From Micromonospora sp. NBC_01699 (GTDB lineage: Bacteria; Actinomycetota; Actinomycetes; Mycobacteriales; Micromonosporaceae): 64,000 bases of DNA. Below, in pieces: positions 1,942-25,375 of the stretch. Location: assembly GCF_036250065.1 (NCBI RefSeq), contig NZ_CP109199.1, positions 310,001 through 374,000 of the forward strand, in the 5' to 3' direction. Below the pieces are notes generated by a model. The model made no database searches, was not told the origin of the DNA, and saw nothing but the letters and a program-made list of their open reading frames with translations. The translations under genes were made by a program, and so were the position numbers. Numbering within the stretch: the first letter of the stretch is position 1; the number at the start of each line of letters is the position of its first letter.

Positions 1942-4809
1942 GTGCCGAGTAACGCCAAGAGCACCCGTCTGGTCATCGTCGAGTCACCGGCGAAGGCCAA
2001 GACGATCTCGGGCTATCTCGGCCCGGGGTACATCGTCGAAGCCAGCCTGGGACACGTCCGGGACCTGCCGCGCAACGCCGCCGACGTACCCGCCAAATAC
2101 AAGAAGGAACCGTGGGCCCGGCTCGGCGTCGACGTCGACCACGGCTTCACCGCGCTCTACGTCGTCTCCGCCGACCGGCGCCAGCAGATCGCCAAGCTGA
2201 CCAAGCTGGCCAAGGAGGTCGACGAGGTCTACCTCGCCACCGACGAGGACCGCGAGGGCGAGGCCATCGCCTGGCACCTGGTCGAGACGCTCAAGCCGCG
2301 GGTCCCGGTCAAGCGGATGGTCTTCCACGAGATCACCCGGCCGGCGATCCAGGCCGCGGTGGCCAACCCCCGCGAGATCGACCAGGACCTGGTCGACGCC
2401 CAGGAGGCCCGACGCATCCTCGACCGGCTGTACGGCTACGAGGTCTCCCCGGTGCTCTGGAAGAAGGTCATGCCGCGCCTGTCGGCCGGCCGGGTCCAGT
2501 CGGTGGCGACCAGGATCGTGGTCGAGCGGGAACGGCAGCGGATGGCCTTCCGCACCGCCGAGTACTGGGACATCCTGGCCACCCTCGCCGTACGCGACGG
2601 CGGTGAAGGGCCGCGCACGTTCCATGCCACCCTGATCGGGCTGGGCGGCGACCGGATCGCCACCGGTCGGGACTTCGAGCCGACCACCGGGAAGGTGAAG
2701 CCGGGCGCCGGGGTGACGCACCTCGACGGTGACGGAGCCCGCGGGCTCGCCGCCCGCCTCGACGGGCGGCCGTTCACCGTCACCCGGGTCGAGGAGAAGC
2801 CCTACCGCCGCCGGCCGTACGCGCCGTTCATCACCTCCACGCTCCAGCAGGAGGCGGCCCGCAAGCTGCGCCTGTCGTCCCAGCAGACGATGCGCACCGC
2901 CCAGCGGCTGTACGAGAACGGCTACATCACCTATATGCGTACCGACTCGGTGAACCTGTCGGAGACCGCGATCGCCGCCGCCCGCCGCCAGATCGCCGAG
3001 CTGTACGGCGAGCGCAACGTGCCGCCGGAGCCGCGCCGCTACACCGGCAAGGTGAAGAACGCGCAGGAGGCGCACGAGGCGATCCGCCCGGCCGGCGACC
3101 ACTTCCGTACGCCCGGTGAGGTGGCGGGCGAGCTGTCCGGCGAGGAGTTCCGGCTCTACGAGCTGATCTGGCGCCGGACCATCGCCTCGCAGATGACCGA
3201 CGCGGTCGGCTCCAGCGTCTCGGTCCGGATCCGCGCGGTCACCACGGCCGGCGAGGAGGCCGACTTCGGCGCCACCGGCAAGACCATCACCGATCCGGGC
3301 TTCCTGCGGGCGTACGTGGAGTCGTCCGACGACGAGAACGCCGAGGCCGAGGACGCCGAGCGGCGGCTGCCGAACCTGGTCAAGGACCAGCCGCTGAGCG
3401 CCGAACAGCTCGCCGCGACCGGGCACACCACCCAGCCGCCGGCCCGCTACACCGAAGCCTCGCTGGTCAAGTCGCTGGAGGAGCTGGGCATCGGTCGCCC
3501 GTCGACGTACGCGTCGATCATGCAGACCATCCAGGACCGGGGGTACGTGTTCAAGCGCGGTCAGGCGCTGATCCCGTCCTTCCTGGCGTTCGCCGTCGTC
3601 GGCCTGCTGGAGCAGCACTACCCGCGCCTGGTCGACTACAACTTCACCGCCGCGATGGAAAACGAGCTGGACGAGATCGCCGGGGGCGACCACGCCGCGG
3701 TGGACTTCCTCACCTCGTTCTACTTCGGCAGCGACGTGGCCGGCGACGACTCGGTGGCCCGGTCCGGTGGACTGAAGAAGATGGTCACCGAGAACCTGAG
3801 CGAGATCGACGCGCGCAGCGTCAACTCGATCCCGCTGTTCCGCGACGACGAGGGCCGCGACGTCGTCGTCCGGGTCGGCCGGTACGGGCCGTACCTGCAA
3901 CGCACGCTGCCGGGCCCCGAAATCGAGAAACCGGTCGTGGCCGAGACCGGTGCCGAGGACGGCGGTCAGCCGGAGGACGGTGGTCCGTCGGGGGACAGGG
4001 TGTCGATCCCGGAGGGTGTCGCGCCGGACGAGCTGACCCCGGAGAAGGTGAGCGAGTACTTCCTCGGCGGTGGCGGCGAGCGCAAGCTCGGCGAGCACCC
4101 GGAGACCGGTGAGCCGATCCTGCTCAAGTCCGGCCGCTTCGGCCCGTACGTCTCCAGCGGTGACCGCAAGTCGTCGCTGCTGAAGTCGCAGTCGCCGGAC
4201 GACATTTCGCTCACCGAGGCGGTGCGCCTGCTCAGCCTGCCGCGGGTGGTCGGGCTGGCGCCGGACGGCGCGGAGGTGCTGGCCGCCGCCGGCCGCTACG
4301 GCCCGTACGTCAAGCAGGGCGACGAGTTCCGTTCGCTGGACTCGGAAGAGAAGATCTTCACGGTCACGCTGGACGAGGCGTTGGCGCTGCTCGCGGCGCC
4401 GAAGGCTCGTCAACGGCGGGCCGCCGCCCCGCCGTTGCGGGAGATGGGCGCCGACCCGCTGACCGAGAAGCCGTTGGTGATCAAGGACGGCCGGTTCGGC
4501 CCGTACGTCACCGACGGGGAGGTCAACGCGTCGCTCCGGCGAAGCCAGACCCCGGAGGAGCTGACTCTCGCGGAGGCATCGGAGATGCTGGCCGAGAAGC
4601 GGGCCAAGGGACCGGCGCCGAAGAAGAAGGCGGCGCCGAAGAAGGCCCCGGCGAAGAAGGCGACCCCTGCGGCCGGGGCAGATGCTCCCGCCAAGAAAAC
4701 CGCCGCAAAAAAGGCCGCCCCCCGAAAAGCCACCGCCGCCAAGTCCACCACCGCGACAAAGGCGACCAAGAAGACCACCCCCGCCAAGGCAACCGACCGA
4801 GCCAAGTAA
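1942..4809 (+). CDS. topA: DNA topoisomerase I
   Basis: Type IA topoisomerase of 955 aa that relaxes negative supercoils through a 5'-phosphotyrosine intermediate. The N-terminal TOPRIM domain starts with VIVESPAKAK and includes the acidic DEDREGE motif (residues 101-107). The catalytic tyrosine is Y331 in ITYMRTDS. After the core there are four GRxGPY repeats of the actinobacterial C-terminal region, then a Lys/Ala/Pro-rich tail (about residues 885-955) typical of high-GC actinobacterial TopA and thought to add DNA grip and processivity. The GTG at 1942 was chosen because GGGGAGAGA lies just upstream; an ATG six codons earlier lacks this. The gene is followed by C-rich sequence and a palindromic repeat element. 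Confidence 0.97.
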   Translation: MPSNAKSTRLVIVESPAKAKTISGYLGPGYIVEASLGHVRDLPRNAADVPAKYKKEPWARLGVDVDHGFTALYVVSADRRQQIAKLTKLAKEVDEVYLATDEDREGEAIAWHLVETLKPRVPVKRMVFHEITRPAIQAAVANPREIDQDLVDAQEARRILDRLYGYEVSPVLWKKVMPRLSAGRVQSVATRIVVERERQRMAFRTAEYWDILATLAVRDGGEGPRTFHATLIGLGGDRIATGRDFEPTTGKVKPGAGVTHLDGDGARGLAARLDGRPFTVTRVEEKPYRRRPYAPFITSTLQQEAARKLRLSSQQTMRTAQRLYENGYITYMRTDSVNLSETAIAAARRQIAELYGERNVPPEPRRYTGKVKNAQEAHEAIRPAGDHFRTPGEVAGELSGEEFRLYELIWRRTIASQMTDAVGSSVSVRIRAVTTAGEEADFGATGKTITDPGFLRAYVESSDDENAEAEDAERRLPNLVKDQPLSAEQLAATGHTTQPPARYTEASLVKSLEELGIGRPSTYASIMQTIQDRGYVFKRGQALIPSFLAFAVVGLLEQHYPRLVDYNFTAAMENELDEIAGGDHAAVDFLTSFYFGSDVAGDDSVARSGGLKKMVTENLSEIDARSVNSIPLFRDDEGRDVVVRVGRYGPYLQRTLPGPEIEKPVVAETGAEDGGQPEDGGPSGDRVSIPEGVAPDELTPEKVSEYFLGGGGERKLGEHPETGEPILLKSGRFGPYVSSGDRKSSLLKSQSPDDISLTEAVRLLSLPRVVGLAPDGAEVLAAAGRYGPYVKQGDEFRSLDSEEKIFTVTLDEALALLAAPKARQRRAAAPPLREMGADPLTEKPLVIKDGRFGPYVTDGEVNASLRRSQTPEELTLAEASEMLAEKRAKGPAPKKKAAPKKAPAKKATPAAGADAPAKKTAAKKAAPRKATAAKSTTATKATKKTTPAKATDRAK

Positions 4810-4903
4810 ACCCCCAAGCACCCCCCCGCCCCCCGCCCCGCCCCGTGCCCCCCCATGCCCCCCGTGCCTCCCGTGCCCCCCGTGCCCCCGTGCCCGCCCC
4901 TGT

Positions 4904-4973
4904 CCCCGTCGATCTAGGGCAAATACGTGCTTGTTGATCTCTAACAGCCACCATTTGCCCTAGATCGACGGGG
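4904..4973. repeat. Dispersed palindromic element, copy 1
   Basis: A perfect 21-bp stem (4904-4924 with 4953-4973; core CGATCTAGGGCAAAT) encloses a 28-nt loop beginning ACGTG and ending CCACC. A C-rich tract with repeated CCCGTGCC lies to the left (about 4811-4907) and a G-rich tract to the right (about 4970-5040). Two further copies occur at 16807-16864 and 22589-22646. It could terminate topA transcription, but sequence conservation in the loop suggests more than a terminator. Confidence 0.85.
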
Positions 4974-5040
4974 TGGGTGGGCGGCGGGCGGGGTGGACGG
5001 GGGTGGGGGTGGGGGTGGGGGCCGGAAGGGGTGAAGGGGG
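4970..5040 (+). other. G-rich tract with G-quadruplex potential
   Basis: More than six runs of three to five G separated by one or two bases lie between 4970 and 5024, with more runs to 5040, directly after palindromic element copy 1 and 46 bp before the next gene. Four-run intramolecular quadruplexes can be drawn on the plus strand. A matching C-rich tract precedes the element. The function is unknown. Confidence 0.6.
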
Positions 5041-5085
5041 CTGGAACGGGTTTTTTGGTTTGGGAGTGTGCTTTAGGCTGCTGCG

Positions 5086-6354
5086 ATGGTTCGACGGGGG
5101 ATATTGGCCGGACATCGGCACACAATGCTGCTGTTTTCGGCCGTACTGGTAGTGGTATTGATCGGTATCGGTGCCGTTGGTTATGGCGCGGACTGGTGGG
5201 GTGGGTCGTCGCCGCGTACGTCGACCTGGGTGGGTGCCCCCAGCGGCGTGCCGGGGACGCCGTCCGGGGGTGCGGCGGCGGCGTCCGGGGCCCGGCTGGA
5301 CGGGCAGGGCCGGCGGCTGTTCACGGTGCTCGGCGCGGGTGACGTACTGGTGCATCCGGCGGTGTCGGAGCAGGCGCGCCGGGACGCCACCCGGACCGGC
5401 CGACCGGGCAGCTTCGACTTCCTGCCGATGTTCGGCTCGGTCGCACCCGCCATCACCGGCGCCGACCTGGCCATCTGCCACCTGGAGATCCCGCTCGCCC
5501 CGGCCGCCGGTCCGTTTCTGGGCTACCCGCAGTTCAGCGCCCCGCCGCAGCTGGCCGACGGGCTGCGCCGAGCCGGCTTCGACGCCTGCTCCACCGCCTC
5601 GAACCACACGCTGGACCAGGGCGCGCAGGGGGTGAAGCGGACCCTGGACGCGCTCGACGCGGCCGGGCTCGGCCACTCCGGGAGCGCCCGCGACGCCCGT
5701 GAGGCCGGCACGCCGAGGATCTACCAGGCGGCCGGGGTCGGGGTCGGGCACCTGTCGTACAGTCTGAATTTCAACGGGCTGCAACGGCCGGCGGGCAAGC
5801 TCTGGATGGCCAACCTGATCGAGCCGGACAAGATCCTGGCCGCGGCGGCCGGGCTGCGCGCGGCCGGCGCCGAGATCGTCGTGCTCAGCCTGCACTGGGG
5901 TACGGAGTACCAGCATCTGCCGGACGCCGACCAACTGCGCTGGGTGCAGCAGCTGATCGACTCGCCCGATATCGACCTGGTTCTCGGGCACCACGCGCAC
6001 GTGGTGCAGCCGTTCGAGCAGTTCGGTGAGAAGTGGGTCGTATACGGCATGGGCAACCAGTTGGCACGCCATTCCGAACCGGTGAATGACAACCGCGAGG
6101 GTGTCATGGCAAAAATTACCTTCACGGAAATTGCCCCGGAAAAGTGGAAGATAAGCGAGGCTGCGGCGATTCCCATCTGGACCGATCTCGCGCCCGATAT
6201 CCGGCTGGTCGATCTCGCCGCCGCACTCGCCGATCCGACCCTGCCGGCCGCCAATCGCGAGGTCTACCGGGGCGCGTACGGGCGGATCACCGGTTATCTG
6301 ACCGCGCGGGGCGCCGACCAGGACGGACTGAAGGTGCTGTCCCGCACCGGCTGA
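5086..6354 (+). CDS. CapA-family (PGA_cap) metallophosphatase-like membrane protein
   Basis: A 422-aa protein with one N-terminal membrane helix (about residues 15-33) and an extracellular PGA_cap domain (about 75-330) of the calcineurin-like fold, related to CapA/PgsA of poly-gamma-glutamate synthesis. Visible family motifs are GDVLVHP, the SNH of TASNHTLDQG, LSLHWGTEYQ, and GHHAHVVQP near residue 302, which supply metal ligands. No CapB or CapC genes are nearby, so poly-gamma-glutamate production is not supported; many actinobacterial CapA-like proteins stand alone. The ATG follows a -10-like TAGGCT by 6 nt, consistent with leaderless expression. The 3' quarter (about 6055-6200) is noticeably less GC-rich than the rest. 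Confidence 0.85.
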   Translation: MVRRGILAGHRHTMLLFSAVLVVVLIGIGAVGYGADWWGGSSPRTSTWVGAPSGVPGTPSGGAAAASGARLDGQGRRLFTVLGAGDVLVHPAVSEQARRDATRTGRPGSFDFLPMFGSVAPAITGADLAICHLEIPLAPAAGPFLGYPQFSAPPQLADGLRRAGFDACSTASNHTLDQGAQGVKRTLDALDAAGLGHSGSARDAREAGTPRIYQAAGVGVGHLSYSLNFNGLQRPAGKLWMANLIEPDKILAAAAGLRAAGAEIVVLSLHWGTEYQHLPDADQLRWVQQLIDSPDIDLVLGHHAHVVQPFEQFGEKWVVYGMGNQLARHSEPVNDNREGVMAKITFTEIAPEKWKISEAAAIPIWTDLAPDIRLVDLAAALADPTLPAANREVYRGAYGRITGYLTARGADQDGLKVLSRTG

Positions 6355-16806: not shown

Positions 16807-16864
16807 CGATCTAGGGCGAATACGTGCTTGTTGATCTCCGATCACCACCATTTGCCCTAGATCG
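16807..16864. repeat. Dispersed palindromic element, copy 2
   Basis: A 15-bp stem (16807-16821 with 16850-16864) with one G-T wobble and a 28-nt loop. Flanks are weakly C-rich on the left and G-rich on the right. Within the loop TGAT/ATCA can form a short apical stem. It lies between convergent genes, 118 bp after the methyltransferase stop and 57 bp before the surface-protein stop, where it could work as a bidirectional terminator. Confidence 0.85.
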
Positions 16865-16920: not shown

Positions 16921-19900
16921 TTAGACGAGGTTGCGTCTGCGTCCGGGGAGGCGCTGGTGGCTCAGTGCGATGAATGCCGCGCCGAGGGCGATGGTGGTCA
17001 GGGCGATGGTGACGTAGGCCGAGACTCGGCTTCCGGTGACGGGCAGCATGCCCTTGCGGACCGTGATGGTTGCCGAGGCCGAGGAGCCCGGGCCGCTCTG
17101 GTCCGAGGTGACGGCAGACGTCGTATTGACCTTCGTGCCGCTGGTGGTGCCGGTGACGTTCACCGAGAAGGTGCAGCTTCCGTTGGCCGGCAGGGTCGCG
17201 CCGGTCAGGCTGATGCTGCTGCTATCGGCGGTCGCGGTGATCGTGCCGCCGCCGCAGGAGCCATTCAAACCGTTGGGGGTGGCGACCACCAGGCCCGCAG
17301 GAAGGTCGTCGGTGAAGCCGACGCCGGTCAGCGGCGTACCCGTATTGGGGTTGGTGAGGGTGAAGCTCAGCGACGTCGTCCCGTGGAGATGGAGGATGCC
17401 CTTCTCGAACGCCTTGGCGATTGTCGGTGCCGTGACGATCACCGCGACGACCGTGACGGTTCCCGAGGCAGGGGTGCCCGGACCGCTTTCGACCGAGGTG
17501 ATGGCGGTGGTCGTATTGACCTTTGTTCCGGTGGTGGTGGCGGTGACGTTCACCGACACCGTGCAACTCCCGCTGGCCGGCAGGGTGACACTGAACAGGC
17601 TGATGGTGCTGCTACCGGGCGTCGCGGTGATTGTGCCGGAGGGGCAGTCGGTTTGCGCGGCGCTGGGGGTGGCGACCACCAGTCCCGCAGGAAGGTTGTC
17701 GACGAAACTGACGCCGGTCAGCGGCGTACCCGGGTTCGGGTTGGTGAGGGTGAAGTCGAGGGACGTCGTCCCGCCGGAAGGGATGGTGGCGTCACCGAAA
17801 GCCTTGGCGAGCGTCGGTGCCGTTGCGACAGCAACCGTGACGCTCGCCGCGGCGGGCGTACCCGGGCCGCTCTCGTTCGAGTTCACCGGGCCGCTCGTGT
17901 TCACCTTCGTACCGCTGGTGGTGGCGGTGACGTTCACCGAGAAGGTGCAGCTCCCGTTGGGCGCCAAGGTCGCGCCGGCCAGGCTGATGGTGCTGCTGCC
18001 GGCGGTTGCGGTGATGGTGCCGCCGCCGCAGGAGCCGGTCAGGCCGTTGGGGGTGGCGACGACGAGTCCTGCGGGCAGGGCGTCACTGAAACCGACCCCG
18101 GTGAGCGGTGTGATCGCGTTGGGGTTGCTGAGGGTGAATTCAAGCGATGTCGTACCGCCGGCACCGATGGTCGTGCTCCCGAAAGTCTTGGCGATCGTCG
18201 GCGGTGTGGCGACAGCAACCGTGACGGTTGCCGCAGCGGGGGCGCCGGGGCCGCCTTCGTTCGAGTTCACGGGGCCGCTGGTGTTGAGTTTTGTGCCGCT
18301 GGTGGTGGCGGTGACGTTTACGGAGAAGGTGCAGCTTCCGTTGGCGGGCAGGGTGGCGCCGGTCAGGCTGATGGTGCTGCTGCCGGCGGTTGCGGTGATG
18401 GTGCCGCCGCCGCAGGAGCCGGTCAGGCCGTTGGGTGTGGCGACGACGAGTCCTGCGGGCAGGGTGTCACTGAAACCGATGCCGGTCAGTGGCGTACCCG
18501 GGTTGGGGTTGGTCAGGGTGAAGTCGAGCGATGTCGTCCCGCCGAAGGGGATGGTCGCATCCACGAAAGCCTTGGCGATCGTCGGAGGTGCGACGACCGC
18601 CGCCCCGACTGTGACGGTTGCCGAGGCGGGGGCGCCGGGGCCGCTTTCGGTTGAGTCGACCGGGCCGCTGGTGTTGAGTTTTGTGCCGCTGGTGGTGGCG
18701 GTGACGTTCACGGAGAAGGTGCAGCTTCCGTTGGCGGGCAGGGTGGCGCCGGTCAGGCTGATGGTGCTGCTGCCGGCGGTTGCGGTGATGGTGCCGCCGC
18801 CGCAGGAGCCGGTCAGGCCGTTGGGTGTGGCGACGACGAGTCCTGCGGGCAGGGTGTCACTGAAACCGATGCCGGTCAGTGGCGTACCCGGGTTGGGGTT
18901 GGTCAGGGTGAAACCGAGCGATGTCGTCCCGCCGAAGGGGATGGTCGCATCCACGAAAGCCTTGGCGATCGTCGGAGGTGCGACGACCGCCGCCCCGACT
19001 GTGACGGTTGCCGAGGCGGGGGCGCCGGGGCCGCTTTCGGTTGAGTCGACCGGGCCGCTGGTGTTGAGTTTTGTGCCGCTGGTGGTGGCGGTGACGTTCA
19101 CGGAGAAGGTGCAGCTTCCGTTGGCCGGCAGGGTCGCGCCGGTCAGGCTGATGGTGCTGCTGCCGGCGGTTGCGGTGATGGTGCCGCCGCCGCAGGAGCC
19201 GGTCAGGCCGTTGGGGGTGGCGACGACGAGTCCTGCGGGCAGGGCGTCACTGAAGTTGACGCCGGTCAGTGGCGTACTCGGGTTGGGGTTGGTGAGGGTG
19301 AAGTCGAGTGAGGTTGTGCCGCCGGAGGGGATGGTCGGGTCTCCGAAGGCTTTGGCGATTGTTGGTGGTGCGATGACCGCCGCCCCGACTGTGACGGTTG
19401 CCGAGGCGGGGGCGCCGGGGCCGCTTTCGGTTGAGTCGACCGGGCCGCTGGTGTTGAGTTTTGTGCCGCTGGTGGTGGCGGTGACGTTCACGGAGAAGGT
19501 GCAGCTTCCGTTGGCGGGCAGGGTGGCGCCGGTCAGGCTGATGGTGCTGCTGCCGGCGGTTGCGGTGATGGTGCCGCCGCCGCAGGAGCCGGTCAGGCCG
19601 TTGGGTGTGGCGACTTCCAGCCCTGCGGGCAGGGTGTCACTGAAGTTGACGCTGGTCAGCGACGTACCCGCATTGGGGTTGGTCAGGGTGAAGTCGAGCG
19701 ATGTTGTCCCGCCGAAGGGGAGGGTCGCGTCCCCGAAAGCCTTGGAGATCGTCGGTGGCGCAATGGCTGCGGCACAGAACGGTCGCGTGATGGTGTTGTG
19801 GATCAGCGTGACCGCGCCGTTGCGGGCCAGCACCCGCCCGGCAACGGTGGCTCCCTCTCCCAGCGTCGCCGACTGCAACGCCAGGATGGTGCCGGCGAAA

Positions 19901-20517
19901 ATCGTTCTGGTATTCAGGGTCGCCGAGCTGCTGACCTGCCAGAACACGTTGCACGGCTGCGCGCCACGGATCAGGCTGACCCGGCTGTCAGTCGCGGTGA
20001 CCAGGTCGGATCCCACCTGGAAGACGAACACCGCGTTGGGATCGTTCCCCGCGTCCAGTGTGACGGTGCCCGTCAGGGACATGGTGGCGGGCGACCTGTA
20101 AACCCCTGCGGCCAGCGTCTGGCCGCCGAGGTCGGAACTTATCGTGCCGGTCGTCGGTTCGGCTGCGGCAAAGTTGTACGCCGTGGTCAGGGCAGCCTGG
20201 GCCTGCATCGCCGCGGTGTCACCGACGTGCGTGGCGCCGTTCACCACGGGGGCGCCGGTGACCGACGTGCCCGGCCAGACGCCCAGGTCCCCGTTGATGG
20301 TGGAAGGGCCGACGGGAGGTGGGACGTCGGTGACCGCTTGGCCGGCCAACACCCCGTAGGTCTCGGCAACGCCCAACGGGACCGGGGCCTGGGCCCACGC
20401 CGCCGGCACCCCAACGACCCCAACAAAAATCGTCGCGGTTGCGACCGCCCCCGCCATCGCCATCGCAGTAGACCGACGGCGTCTACGACACGCGCGAGCC
20501 AAACGGATCACCGACAC
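16921..20517 (-). CDS. Sortase-anchored surface protein: ice-binding (DUF3494) head plus seven repeats
   Basis: A 1198-aa secreted wall protein. Arg-rich start and hydrophobic signal peptide ending ..PAAWAQA; DUF3494 ice-binding-type domain (about residues 45-245). Seven 128-130-residue repeats start PPTIAKAF or similar at residues 254, 384, 514, 644, 772, 900 and 1030; these are DUF11-like Ig-type stalk units with one CGGG/CTF cysteine pair in most. The end is LPVTG (1158-1162), a membrane helix and RRR, a sortase signal. GTG 20517 was chosen because GGGGGA lies 6 nt upstream; a TTG seven codons earlier is possible. DUF3494 domains may bind ice or other surfaces, so an adhesin role is equally possible. 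No sortase gene is adjacent. Confidence 0.92.
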   Translation of the reverse strand: MSVIRLARACRRRRRSTAMAMAGAVATATIFVGVVGVPAAWAQAPVPLGVAETYGVLAGQAVTDVPPPVGPSTINGDLGVWPGTSVTGAPVVNGATHVGDTAAMQAQAALTTAYNFAAAEPTTGTISSDLGGQTLAAGVYRSPATMSLTGTVTLDAGNDPNAVFVFQVGSDLVTATDSRVSLIRGAQPCNVFWQVSSSATLNTRTIFAGTILALQSATLGEGATVAGRVLARNGAVTLIHNTITRPFCAAAIAPPTISKAFGDATLPFGGTTSLDFTLTNPNAGTSLTSVNFSDTLPAGLEVATPNGLTGSCGGGTITATAGSSTISLTGATLPANGSCTFSVNVTATTSGTKLNTSGPVDSTESGPGAPASATVTVGAAVIAPPTIAKAFGDPTIPSGGTTSLDFTLTNPNPSTPLTGVNFSDALPAGLVVATPNGLTGSCGGGTITATAGSSTISLTGATLPANGSCTFSVNVTATTSGTKLNTSGPVDSTESGPGAPASATVTVGAAVVAPPTIAKAFVDATIPFGGTTSLGFTLTNPNPGTPLTGIGFSDTLPAGLVVATPNGLTGSCGGGTITATAGSSTISLTGATLPANGSCTFSVNVTATTSGTKLNTSGPVDSTESGPGAPASATVTVGAAVVAPPTIAKAFVDATIPFGGTTSLDFTLTNPNPGTPLTGIGFSDTLPAGLVVATPNGLTGSCGGGTITATAGSSTISLTGATLPANGSCTFSVNVTATTSGTKLNTSGPVNSNEGGPGAPAAATVTVAVATPPTIAKTFGSTTIGAGGTTSLEFTLSNPNAITPLTGVGFSDALPAGLVVATPNGLTGSCGGGTITATAGSSTISLAGATLAPNGSCTFSVNVTATTSGTKVNTSGPVNSNESGPGTPAAASVTVAVATAPTLAKAFGDATIPSGGTTSLDFTLTNPNPGTPLTGVSFVDNLPAGLVVATPSAAQTDCPSGTITATPGSSTISLFSVTLPASGSCTVSVNVTATTTGTKVNTTTAITSVESGPGTPASGTVTVVAVIVTAPTIAKAFEKGILHLHGTTSLSFTLTNPNTGTPLTGVGFTDDLPAGLVVATPNGLNGSCGGGTITATADSSSISLTGATLPANGSCTFSVNVTGTTSGTKVNTTSAVTSDQSGPGSSASATITVRKGMLPVTGSRVSAYVTIALTTIALGAAFIALSHQRLPGRRRNLV
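17060..19760 (-). repeat. Seven tandem ~390-bp coding repeats
   Basis: The first three periods are exactly 390 bp (boundaries 19758, 19368, 18978, 18588), followed by 384, 384 and 390 bp. Long blocks around 18617-18860, 19007-19250 and 19397-19610 are almost identical at the DNA level, while the first and last units differ more. This points to recent amplification or gene conversion within the middle of the array. Confidence 0.88.
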
Positions 20518-22588: not shown

Positions 22589-22646
22589 CGATCTAGGGCA
22601 AATACGTGTTAGTTGATCTCCAATCGCCACCATTTCCCCTAGATCG
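22589..22646. repeat. Dispersed palindromic element, copy 3
   Basis: A 15-bp stem (22589-22603 with 22632-22646) with one C-C mismatch and a 28-nt loop beginning ACGTG and ending CCACC as in the other copies. A C-rich pyrimidine tract (about 22517-22578) lies left and a G-rich tract (22654-22710) right. Located between the metallophosphoesterase promoter region and tRNA-Thr, so here it is not between convergent genes and is unlikely to be a simple terminator. Confidence 0.82.
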
Positions 22647-22727: not shown

Positions 22728-22804
22728 GCCGCCTTAGCTCAGTCGGCTAGAGCGACGCACTCGTAATGCGTAGGTCGACGGTTCGATTCCGTCAGGCGGC
22801 TCCA
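22728..22804 (+). tRNA. tRNA-Thr (anticodon CGT)
   Basis: Full cloverleaf of 77 nt including encoded CCA (22802-22804). The acceptor stem pairs GCCGCCT (22728-22734) with AGGCGGC. The anticodon stem ACGCA/TGCGT encloses loop CTCGTAA with anticodon CGT at 22762-22764, reading ACG threonine codons. The T-arm has GGTTCGATTCC. A GAAA-loop terminator follows. The DNA downstream looks accessory, so this tRNA may have served as an integration site, though no repeated 3' end was found. Confidence 0.97.
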
Positions 22805-23176: not shown

Positions 23177-23243
23177 CAGCCAAGGGACGCCCGGCCCGGC
23201 GCCAACAACGCCGCACCTTCAACCCACCCGGCTGACAACAAAC

Positions 23244-25375
23244 TCATACACCCTCGGTGAGATGGCGCCGGACCGTGTCGGCTCGGGGGTCTCCGAGCGG
23301 GTCGAGGATACGGAGCGCTTCTTGCCGGTAGCGTCGGGCTTCGTCTGGCTGGCCGGTGGCGTCGAGGGTATCGCCAAGGGCTGCCAGGGTGAGTCCTTCG
23401 GAGCGCCGGTCGTCGAATCTGCGGAACAGATCCAAGGCGCGTTGGTGTTGCCGGCGGGCTTGGTCGAGTTGGCCGGCTTGCTGGTAGGCCAGGGCGAGGG
23501 GGTAGGAGGCCCAGGCGACGCTCCACTGGTCGTCGATACGTTCGAGTATGGCCACCGAGTCGCGGTAGTGGCTGATGGCGGCGTCGAGTTGACCGAGCGT
23601 GCGGTGGCAGTTGCCGAGGCTGAGCAGGGACATGCCCTCGCCTCGGGTGATATTGCTGGCGCGGAAGACGTCGCGTGCTTGGGCGTACAGGTCGATCGCT
23701 CGTCGATCTGGCCGCGTTCCTCGTGTATGAGACCCATTCCTCGGAGGGAGAACCCCTCCACCCAGCGGTCGTCAACTTCGCGGCTCGCTTCGACGCCTTG
23801 GCGGTAGCAGCTGAGAGCGTCCTCGCGTTGTCCCATTCGCCAGTACGCGTCGCCGAGGCATCGGAGGTTGGCGGCCTCGCCGTGGCGGGATGCGGCCGCG
23901 CGTGCGGCACGCAGGCCGAAGAGGTGGATGTCGCGCCAGTCCGTCCAGTAGGACTTGAGCTCGAAAAAGCCGTCGCTGACCACGGGTAGCTGCCAGGCGA
24001 TGTCGTAGTCACCGAGCTCGCTGGCCTGTCTGACGTTGTCGAGCAGGTTCAGCCTTTCCTGCTCGAACCAGGCCATCGCCTCGGCCACGGTCCTCGGGGA
24101 TGTGAGGGGTAGGTCGGGTTCCGCTGGTGGGAGGGGAATGGCGTGGGAGTAGGGCAGGATGATTTTTCGGCCCTCTTCCGCCATCCACTGGTACCAGTCG
24201 TAGGCACGGCGCCGCGCCCGGCGCTGCTGCTCTGCTGACTCTTCGGCCTCAGCGCGTTCCTTGGCGTAGGCGCGGAGGAGGTCGTGGAGGAGGTAGCGGT
24301 CCCGAGCGGGATTCTGTAGCAGGTGCGCCGCGTTCAGTTGATCAAGCAGGTTGCGGGCTCGGGGCACGCTCACACCGGCGAGCGCTGCCGCTGCGGCGGC
24401 GCAGATGTCGGACCCGGCGTGTAGCCCGAGTAGTCGGAGCAACCGTGCGGCGTCGTCCGGCAGGGCTCGGTATGACCAGGAGAAGACCGCCCGCACGTCG
24501 GAGAGTTCGTCGCCCTCGACGGCTAGGACATCGAGTTGATGTTCGGCCAGTGCGAGGTCGGTTACGAAGTCCGCGAGGAGCAGGTGGGGTGAGTTGGCGA
24601 TGCGTTCACCGATGATGCGCAGGGCTAGCGGCAGGTAGGCGCATCGACGGGCAAGCTCGGAGGCTGCCTGAGGTTCGGCGTTGACGCGGTCGTCGCCGAC
24701 GCTGTCGCGCAGCAGCGCGATCGACTCTTCGGGTGTGAGGACGTCCAAGGTCATGCGTGACGCTCCTTCCCGCGCGACCAGGCCGGAAAGCCGGCTGCGG
24801 CTGGTGATGATCGCCATGCAAGTCGGAGTGGCGGGCAGCAGCGGCCGGACCTGGCTGACTGTGGACACGTTGTCCACCACGATGAGCACCCGCTTGCCGG
24901 TCAGTACAGACCGATACAGGGCGGCTCGTCCCTCGGTGTCGGCGGGGATCTGCTCGGCGGGCACGTGAAGGGCGCGCAGAAAGGTGTCCAGTGCCTGGTC
25001 GACGGCGAGCGCGGGGCCGGGACCGTAGCCGCGCATGTCGACGTAGAGGTCACCGTCGGTGAACCACCGTCGGACCCGATGGGCCCAGTGAACGGCCAAA
25101 GCTGTCTTCCCGACGCCGGGAGCACCGGCGATGGCCGCGACGGTCATTGGCCGGCTGACCGTTGTGGTCGCGTCGTTGCTGGGCACCGGCAGCGCGGCGT
25201 CGAGTCGGGTAAGCGTCTGCTGGCGGTTGACGAAACGGGTCGTGTCGAGGGGCAACTGGCGAGGCGGCGGTGGTGGGGACACGGCTCGCGCATACAGGTT
25301 GATTCCGCCGTGCACCGTCCCCGCTTGGACGATGGCCTCGGCGTCCCCCGACGACTCATTTCGTGTTGTGTCCAC
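23244..25375 (-). pseudogene. NB-ARC/TPR regulatory ATPase, split by a frameshift
   Basis: A STAND-type signalling ATPase of about 710 aa when two frames are joined. The N-terminal 40 residues precede PRQLPLDTTRFVNRQQTL, then NB-ARC with Walker A AGAPGVGKTALAV, Walker B VLIVVDNVS, ITSRSR and LPLALRIIGER, a winged-helix region, and TPRs from about residue 470. The first frame keeps TPR sequence to GLIHEERGQIDER. At about 23697-23702 one base is missing, and the TPRs resume in another frame (DLYAQARDVFRAS..MSLLSLG..) to the stop at 23244. In the original frame translation runs on as nonsense to 23219. GGAGG lies just upstream of GTG 25375. Either a pseudogene, a phase-variable site or a sequencing error. 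Confidence 0.85.

Follow-up and report, generated by a model that had tools for sequence, protein, structure and literature searches.

A repeated palindrome in the 64-kb window

The window analysed here is a stretch of 64,000 nucleotides, positions 310001-374000 of the source genome (G000, one contig of 8,280,328 bp). It contains three copies of a 58-bp palindrome, which we call F1 (Table 1). A first-pass annotation made from the letters of the window had proposed all three, and all three are present; its first copy, drawn as 4904-4973, is our 4910-4967 plus six stem bases on each side. The neighbours it assigned to the copies are also the ones we find: copy 1 lies between topA and a PGA_cap gene on the same strand, and copies 2 and 3 have the contexts listed in Table 1, the ORF at copy 3 being on the minus strand. 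Allowing no more than 3 mismatches, we counted 6 instances of the half-site GATCTAGGGCAAAT in the window, where 0.88 would be expected; none of 100 shuffles reaches 6. Other features of the window include a large protein encoded on the minus strand at 16921-20463, with an Ice_binding domain and seven DUF7933 repeats for which DNA repeats of 384-390 bp code; a tandem 9-bp CCGCCTGAT-like repeat at 844-969, in 10 overlapping registers; and an NB-ARC and TPR protein adjoining the tRNA-Thr gene (23219-25375, minus strand).

Table 1. Coordinates of F1 copies and adjoining features in the window, and of palindromes F2 to F4 on the source contig (G000:C1)
Feature	Position	Strand	Remarks
F1 copy 1	4910..4967	+	core GTTGATCTC on +; 89.4 bits
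F1 copy 2	16807..16864	+	convergent genes either side; 80.3 bits
F1 copy 3	22589..22646	+	ORF start on one side, tRNA-Thr on other; 78.4 bits
topA (neighbour of copy 1)	1942..4809	+	Pfam Topoisom_bac
tRNA-Thr (cgt) (neighbour of copy 3)	22728..22804	+	
Copy 1 left flank, C-rich	4810..4909	.	within 215-bp stretch 4810-5024, without counterpart in sister G002
Copy 1 right flank, G-rich	4968..5024	.	same G000-only 215-bp stretch
Older DNA right of copy 1	5025..5110	.	aligns in G002 and G001; C -> T/G shift vs both
F2 places	G000:C1:212667-212729 (L178), 2424413, 2812535, 7010132, 7027479 and others		
F3, AGAGAAAGAGTGGTTA...	G000:C1:6203990, 1358417		one flipped, one weak/un-flipped copy
F4, CGACGATCTTGCACTTGTGG...	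G000:C1:4130567, 4142902		one flipped, one weak/un-flipped copy

The history of copy 1 can be followed by comparison with a sister genome (G002) and an outgroup (G001). F1 is absent from the topA site in both, and both have an intact hairpin after the topA stop codon, which is where the G002 alignment breaks. In G000 this hairpin has decayed, and its remnant (within the older DNA of Table 1) lies beside the 215-bp stretch that is present in G000 only. Compared with G002, the right flank of copy 1 has lost C on the plus strand 13 times and gained it twice.

The F1 family in the source genome

Three copies in 64 kb had been taken to imply many per genome, and the whole of G000 bears this out. 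Genome-wide, a 20-mer half-site is matched 117 times when as many as 3 mismatches are allowed, and its reversed control once; a covariance-model search of the genome gave at least 150 two-strand matches (150 of 2850 candidates scored). From stretches fetched around the covariance-model matches we recovered at least 93 distinct elements, a lower bound because weak copies may be missing. Their layout is CGATCTAGGGCAAAT-ACGTG-CTWGTTGATCTCYRATCA-(CCACC or CACGT)-ATTTGCCCTAGATCG, exactly 58 bp. Little or no variation is seen among the 93 copies in GATCTAGGGC and its complement, in the central GATCT, or in the G and C on either side of the core. For the outer arms of F1 this invariance is partly selected by the method, as they were preferred by the search seeds.

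The loop had been described as fixed, with 28 nt that begin with ACGTG and end with CCACC. That is accurate for the three window copies, where such a loop separates arms of 15 bp, but the combination is not fixed across the family: ACGTG...CCACC is found in 38 of the 93 copies and ACGTG...CACGT in 21, and there are 17 other combinations. The arm variants ACGTG, GGTGG, GGGGG and ACAGG pair across the two sides as if independent, with observed frequencies equal to expected ones. Folded as RNA in 78-nt windows, the elements have energies of -27.6 to -49.6 kcal/mol.

Five elements overlap a called ORF. Of the other 88, the flanking genes are convergent at 40, codirectional at 36 and divergent at 12, and convergent over divergent placement has an odds ratio of 5.2 (p=1.5e-6) against element-free intergenic regions of the same stretches, which were themselves sampled around elements. 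F1 prefers the 3' ends of genes, with a median of 60 bp to the incoming stop codon. The TAG in its GATCTAG is itself the stop codon of nine called ORFs (for example at G000:C1:7478669, 7696892 and 1315322), as called by a gene finder specific to this analysis whose start codons are uncertain. The core points in the sense direction at 23 of the 36 codirectional sites, which is not a significant bias (p=0.13).

Distribution and conservation among genomes

The pattern GATCWAGGGC-N10-14-TTGATCTC occurs in 11 of 200 Micromonosporaceae genomes, from 7 of 44 genera, and its reversed control has no match; searched phylum-wide in 296 genomes, it was found in the source genome only. Positive genomes have between 1 and 412 F1 half-sites. 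Occurrence is patchy within genera (2 of 37 sampled species in g4, 2 of 6 in g31, 1 of 5 in g7 and 1 of 3 in g23), a mobile-looking distribution of which g31 and g4 are examples. The earlier description of a dispersed, palindromic, intergenic family is supported, F1 being mostly intergenic. Named relatives with F1, all of them Micromonosporaceae, contributed 17 stretches (assemblies JAHRHA01, SLSW01 and Micromonospora sp. CPCC 205371). In the genome with 412 half-site matches (G032; L035, L046, L051), elements are edged by extra arms such as CGATCAAGGATTTCCGCG, which gives nested palindromes.

What the genera have in common is the outer arms, GATCWAGGGC, and the loop core TTGATCTC, whereas the inner stem is species-specific and largely compensated. 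The earlier claim that conservation extends into the loop is sustained for its core, which is kept across genera while the inner stem differs by species. For its rows from the named collection, the alignment concerned (A3) relied on a pattern that requires outer arm and core, so the conservation of those two parts is partly built in; that of the inner stem is not. Among 24 chosen sequences, stem positions pair across genera in 90.9% of cells, against 80.4% after shuffling, and the covariation score is 0.272 against 0.107 for shuffled alignments, with none of 500 shuffles reaching it and values of at most 0.059 when the alignment is slid. Because the stem is compensated and the core unchanged, the F1 hairpin or cruciform and the core look constrained, with the inner stem drifting as a dialect.

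A strand-biased field around F1

The DNA on either side of F1 has an unusual composition. Read toward the element, the first 60 bp of the 116 flanks that have an incoming gene are 65% C and 13% G, and those of the 60 flanks that lack one are 66% C and 11% G; in element-free intergenic DNA, C/G is about 35/35. This field does not depend on the direction of transcription. It persists to about 150 bp from the element, is halved at 150-200 bp and is nearly gone at 200-300 bp.

The field extends into coding sequence. In genes that end toward F1, the composition of third codon positions is C 0.73, G 0.10-0.14, A about 0.13 and T 0.01 within 150 bp. Far from F1 it is roughly C 0.50, G 0.40, A 0.05 and T 0.05, which control 3' ends resemble. 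Four-fold sites within 100 bp are more extreme still (C 0.81, A 0.12, G 0.055, T 0.011). Codon positions 1 and 2 shift too, so that proline rises from 6 to 14% and threonine from 7 to 13% near F1, and glycine falls from 10 to 4%. Runs of four to six C are over-represented near F1 and runs of seven or more are depleted, and words resembling CCCTCCC and CCCCT are enriched relative to mononucleotide shuffles. The pattern of C-runs hints at motif selection or at slippage.

Site histories and the direction of change

Twenty G002 stretches were fetched blind, and 23 of the 93 G000 sites could be mapped onto the full set of G002 stretches. Of 12 G002 element loci tested, 10 lie at the same place as a G000 element; this count of orthologous sites omits 7006579/L146 and 1367518/L152, which have non-orthologous neighbours. 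At one of the 10 sites (4039963; G000:C1:4039953-4040030 vs L150) the core is inverted within the same arms, so the F1 loop can flip or be replaced by another copy. Thirteen G000 sites were looked up in G002 regardless of content. None has an intact element there (the best matches cover 22-34 of the 58 bases), and two, at 332589 and 7093869, hold degenerate copies. The field described above appears in G000 at sites where its sister has no intact element; such sites are polarised through absence of the element from G002 only. At one site, 7451932, the outgroup G001 has an element, so here the copy may have been lost from G002 or gained separately. We saw no target-site duplication by eye at the 13 aligned sites, whose flanks are of low complexity and altered.

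Substitutions at these 13 sites run in one direction. Within 150 bp, on the strand read toward the element, G was lost 219 times and gained 25 times in G000 relative to G002, and T was lost 78 times and gained 24 times; C was gained 192 times and lost 58 times, and A was gained 155 times and lost 41 times. At 500-900 bp from the same sites the losses and gains of G are balanced (290/274). Net loss of G is seen on 25 of the 26 flanks, the remaining one being a tie, and on incoming (-151/+16) as well as outgoing (-68/+9) flanks. The imbalance shows a change that lies on the G000 side, or at least one that differs between G000 and G002. The 10 sites with an element in both genomes show the same direction more weakly, with G lost 145 times and gained 33 times. 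The dominant changes on the outgoing strand are C>T, C>G and A>G, and they have no strong neighbour context; a sequence-specific deaminase was rejected as the source, the neighbour-base signature of known deaminases being absent. Divergence at the 13 sites is 0.174 and 0.151, as against 0.088. Third-position divergence rises slightly (about 0.20 vs 0.16), and that of positions 1 and 2 about two-fold.

Specificity of the field

A blind scan of 815 kb of G000 detected 90 flips from C-rich to G-rich DNA and none in the reverse sense. F1 elements account for 79 of them (out of 93 F1). By eye, the other 11 belong to three further palindromes, F2 (6), F3 (1) and F4 (1), or lie beside F3-like half sequences (2), with one unassigned. 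F2 is a palindrome of 62-64 bp, CGTTGATCATGAAGTTA...TAACTTCATGATCAACG, with a variable middle and the same skew flip, and has 71 half-sites in G000 and 72 in G002. Its skew has the same sign in G000, G001 and G002 and is weaker in G032 and G017; one of its two places in G020 is slightly negative on the both-side average. F1 is sparse in the middle of the contig (about 3.2-5.6 Mb of G000:C1), with 4, 2 and 6 copies in the intervals 3-4, 4-5 and 5-6 Mb, and the other full megabases hold 10-22 copies each; F2 places too avoid 3.62-5.78 Mb.

Strong hairpins as such do not make a field. Outside F1, 40 hairpins have stems of 15 bp or more; once the 11 belonging to F2-F4 are excluded, the remaining 29 have flips of only -0.25 to +0.15. 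In eight other genomes the flip at F1 is positive in 64 of 65 cases, some of the G028 stretches among which may overlap, and random positions average zero. The mean flip in these genomes is 0.15-0.42 vs about 0.54 in G000, so the field is strongest in the genus of G000. Further candidate explanations were rejected. A replichore effect is one, there being no clear difference between the two halves of the chromosome. Selection on host transcripts alone fails because outgoing flanks match incoming ones. Outward growth of the palindrome by snap-back copying fails because complementarity between the two flanks of an element is no greater than between flanks taken from different elements, except in the first 3 bp (z 4.5) and at 16-20 bp (z 2.3).

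Interpretation

Our tentative reading, to which we give a probability of about 45%, is that F1 is a REP-like dispersed palindrome which is processed as DNA again and again, and that this processing leaves behind strand-biased substitutions like those of an origin. The element, of 58 or 59 bp and situated mostly just past stop codons, would spread in some Micromonosporaceae genomes and would act as DNA by forming a hairpin or cruciform. Each copy lies in the middle of a symmetric substitution field that reaches about 150-200 bp to either side; on the outward strand C and A give way there to G and T. The palindrome may be opened, nicked or cut repeatedly, presumably by a nuclease or an initiator; unwinding or resynthesis might then proceed outward over 150-200 bp, and the outgoing strand, exposed or miscopied, would acquire the C>T, C>G and A>G changes. 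Opening or cutting with outward unwinding is the simplest account because the field is symmetric, independent of transcription and specific to repeated palindromes, and because its sign is that of the keto-rich outward strand of origins; the strands that diverge from a bacterial replication origin are usually keto-rich. Several points count against this reading. Selection for strand composition could yield an equal net flow, third-position divergence rises little beside that of positions 1 and 2, no known deaminase has left its signature, the C-runs hint at motif selection or slippage, and the G000-only sites are polarised by G002 alone. We found no partner gene, nuclease or transposase for F1, and by eye no transposase is recognisable between the members of four close F1 pairs, where the ORFs look ordinary or are unconvincing. 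It is possible, if doubtful, that some repeated Micromonosporaceae palindromes are miniature origins or programmed break sites, at which opening and synthesis over about 150-200 bp outward would rewrite neighbouring genes by strand-biased mutation and possibly aid the spread of the palindrome.

The main rival to processing of the palindrome, in our judgement somewhat unlikely, is a bidirectional terminator or insulator, with a hairpin and C-rich, G-poor RNA on each side for loading of Rho, and with flanks shaped by selection. Rho sites are stretches of C-rich, G-poor RNA over about 100 nt, and the approach to F1 matches this signature. The excess of convergent over divergent placement, the incoming stop codons a median of 60 bp away and the strong RNA hairpins point the same way, as does the topA site, where the hairpin that has decayed in G000 was terminator-like. 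A terminator accounts for the preference for 3' ends, but not for an equal field on promoter-side flanks: the field is just as strong where no gene comes in, and it extends into neighbouring coding sequence. Further, no T tract follows the stem of copy 1, ordinary strong hairpins have no field, and the loop core is kept whichever way it points, something that termination does not need.

The flanks might instead be selected as DNA, their G-rich outgoing strand forming a quadruplex or i-motif, or serving as a polar signal at which a translocase or nucleoid protein loads, around a palindrome that binds protein. The symmetry of the field, the excess of C-runs of four to six, the enrichment of CCCCT-like words and the near-invariance of GATCTAGGGC and its complement, which goes beyond the bias of the search seeds, would all suit this explanation. 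Against it, the field changes amino acids and second codon positions as far as 150 bp out, without G-runs being formed there, and divergence is raised rather than lowered; we consider it unlikely. Least probable by far is that F1 functions as RNA, either in a structured 3'-UTR or as a family of small RNAs; a structured-RNA family was one option named by the first-pass annotation. Covariation and low folding energy agree with it, and pairing is indeed conserved across genera, but the orientation of the core is not significantly tied to transcription, the core is inverted at one orthologous site and the flanks are symmetric as DNA. The window has no Rfam match at gathering score other than tRNA, and a 261-bp search at E<=1 returned only sub-threshold animal microRNA and snoRNA models. 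The evidence favours an element that acts as DNA.

If F1 drives strand-biased change nearby, mutation in bacterial genomes would have in it a local, directed source, one that alters the ends of neighbouring proteins (within 100 bp proline and threonine double, and glycine drops by more than half). What it is that processes palindromes in actinobacteria then becomes a testable question, since polarity and range are recorded in the genome, and codon usage and protein termini beside such repeats could not be read as the result of selection alone. If the flanks are termination signals instead, F1 would be a portable bidirectional insulator.

Comparison with known systems

We could not match F1 to a known repeat family. 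In open PMC text, strings from F1 and F2 gave incidental matches in unrelated listings and never appeared as a described repeat, and at the level of titles and abstract openings we found no literature about the F1 family or about local asymmetry of the strands near palindromes in bacteria.

The REP and BIME class of repeats, including the GTAG and CGTC palindromes treated in the available part of PMC3733652, resembles F1 in being short, present in many copies, placed between convergent or codirectional ORFs, divided into species dialects and mobile-looking. Tagged REPs are described there as having stems of 5-13 bp with an unpaired GTAG or CGTC tag at one end, and the RAYT transposase (Y1_Tnp, PF01797) is reported with GTAG repeats and not with CGTC repeats (PMC3733652, same part). 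F1 differs in its length of 58-59 bp, its stem of 15-18 bp or more, its loop of 28-29 nt with a conserved core, and its strand-asymmetric flanking field, a feature absent from that part of the account. The CGTC of F1 sits inside the stem, paired with GACG, rather than in an unpaired tag. A RAYT-driven REP was rejected: PF01797 has no match in five F1-rich genomes (G000, G001, G002, G028 and G032), and its occurrences, in 9 of 61 genomes, include G010 and G036, two genomes whose few, weak R1 matches are to different palindromes. The earlier suggestion of a REP-type element is not supported in the strict sense; F1 works like a REP-type dispersed palindrome but lacks the tag, stem and transposase features. 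MITEs are likewise small, non-coding, dispersed and built on inverted repeats, and may differ from F1 in the target-site duplication, which by eye is not seen in its low-complexity, altered flanks, and in the partner transposase, which was not found.

Rho-dependent and bidirectional intrinsic terminators, like F1, stand behind stop codons and have a hairpin and a C-rich approach. The C-rich, G-poor upstream transcript of the Rho type is present at F1, equally on flanks without incoming genes. The T tract of an intrinsic terminator is missing at copy 1, which is followed by ACGGGGTGGG; a terminator scanner with a loop limit of 8 cannot report this copy. The symmetric, transcription-independent field and the conserved loop also set F1 apart from terminators, as does the lack of a field at ordinary hairpins of G000. 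With replication origins F1 shares the switch from C-rich to G-rich DNA and the rise of keto bases on the outward strand. Unlike at an origin, the switch at F1 spans about 150-200 bp per side, is repeated at about a hundred sites and is centred on a palindrome.
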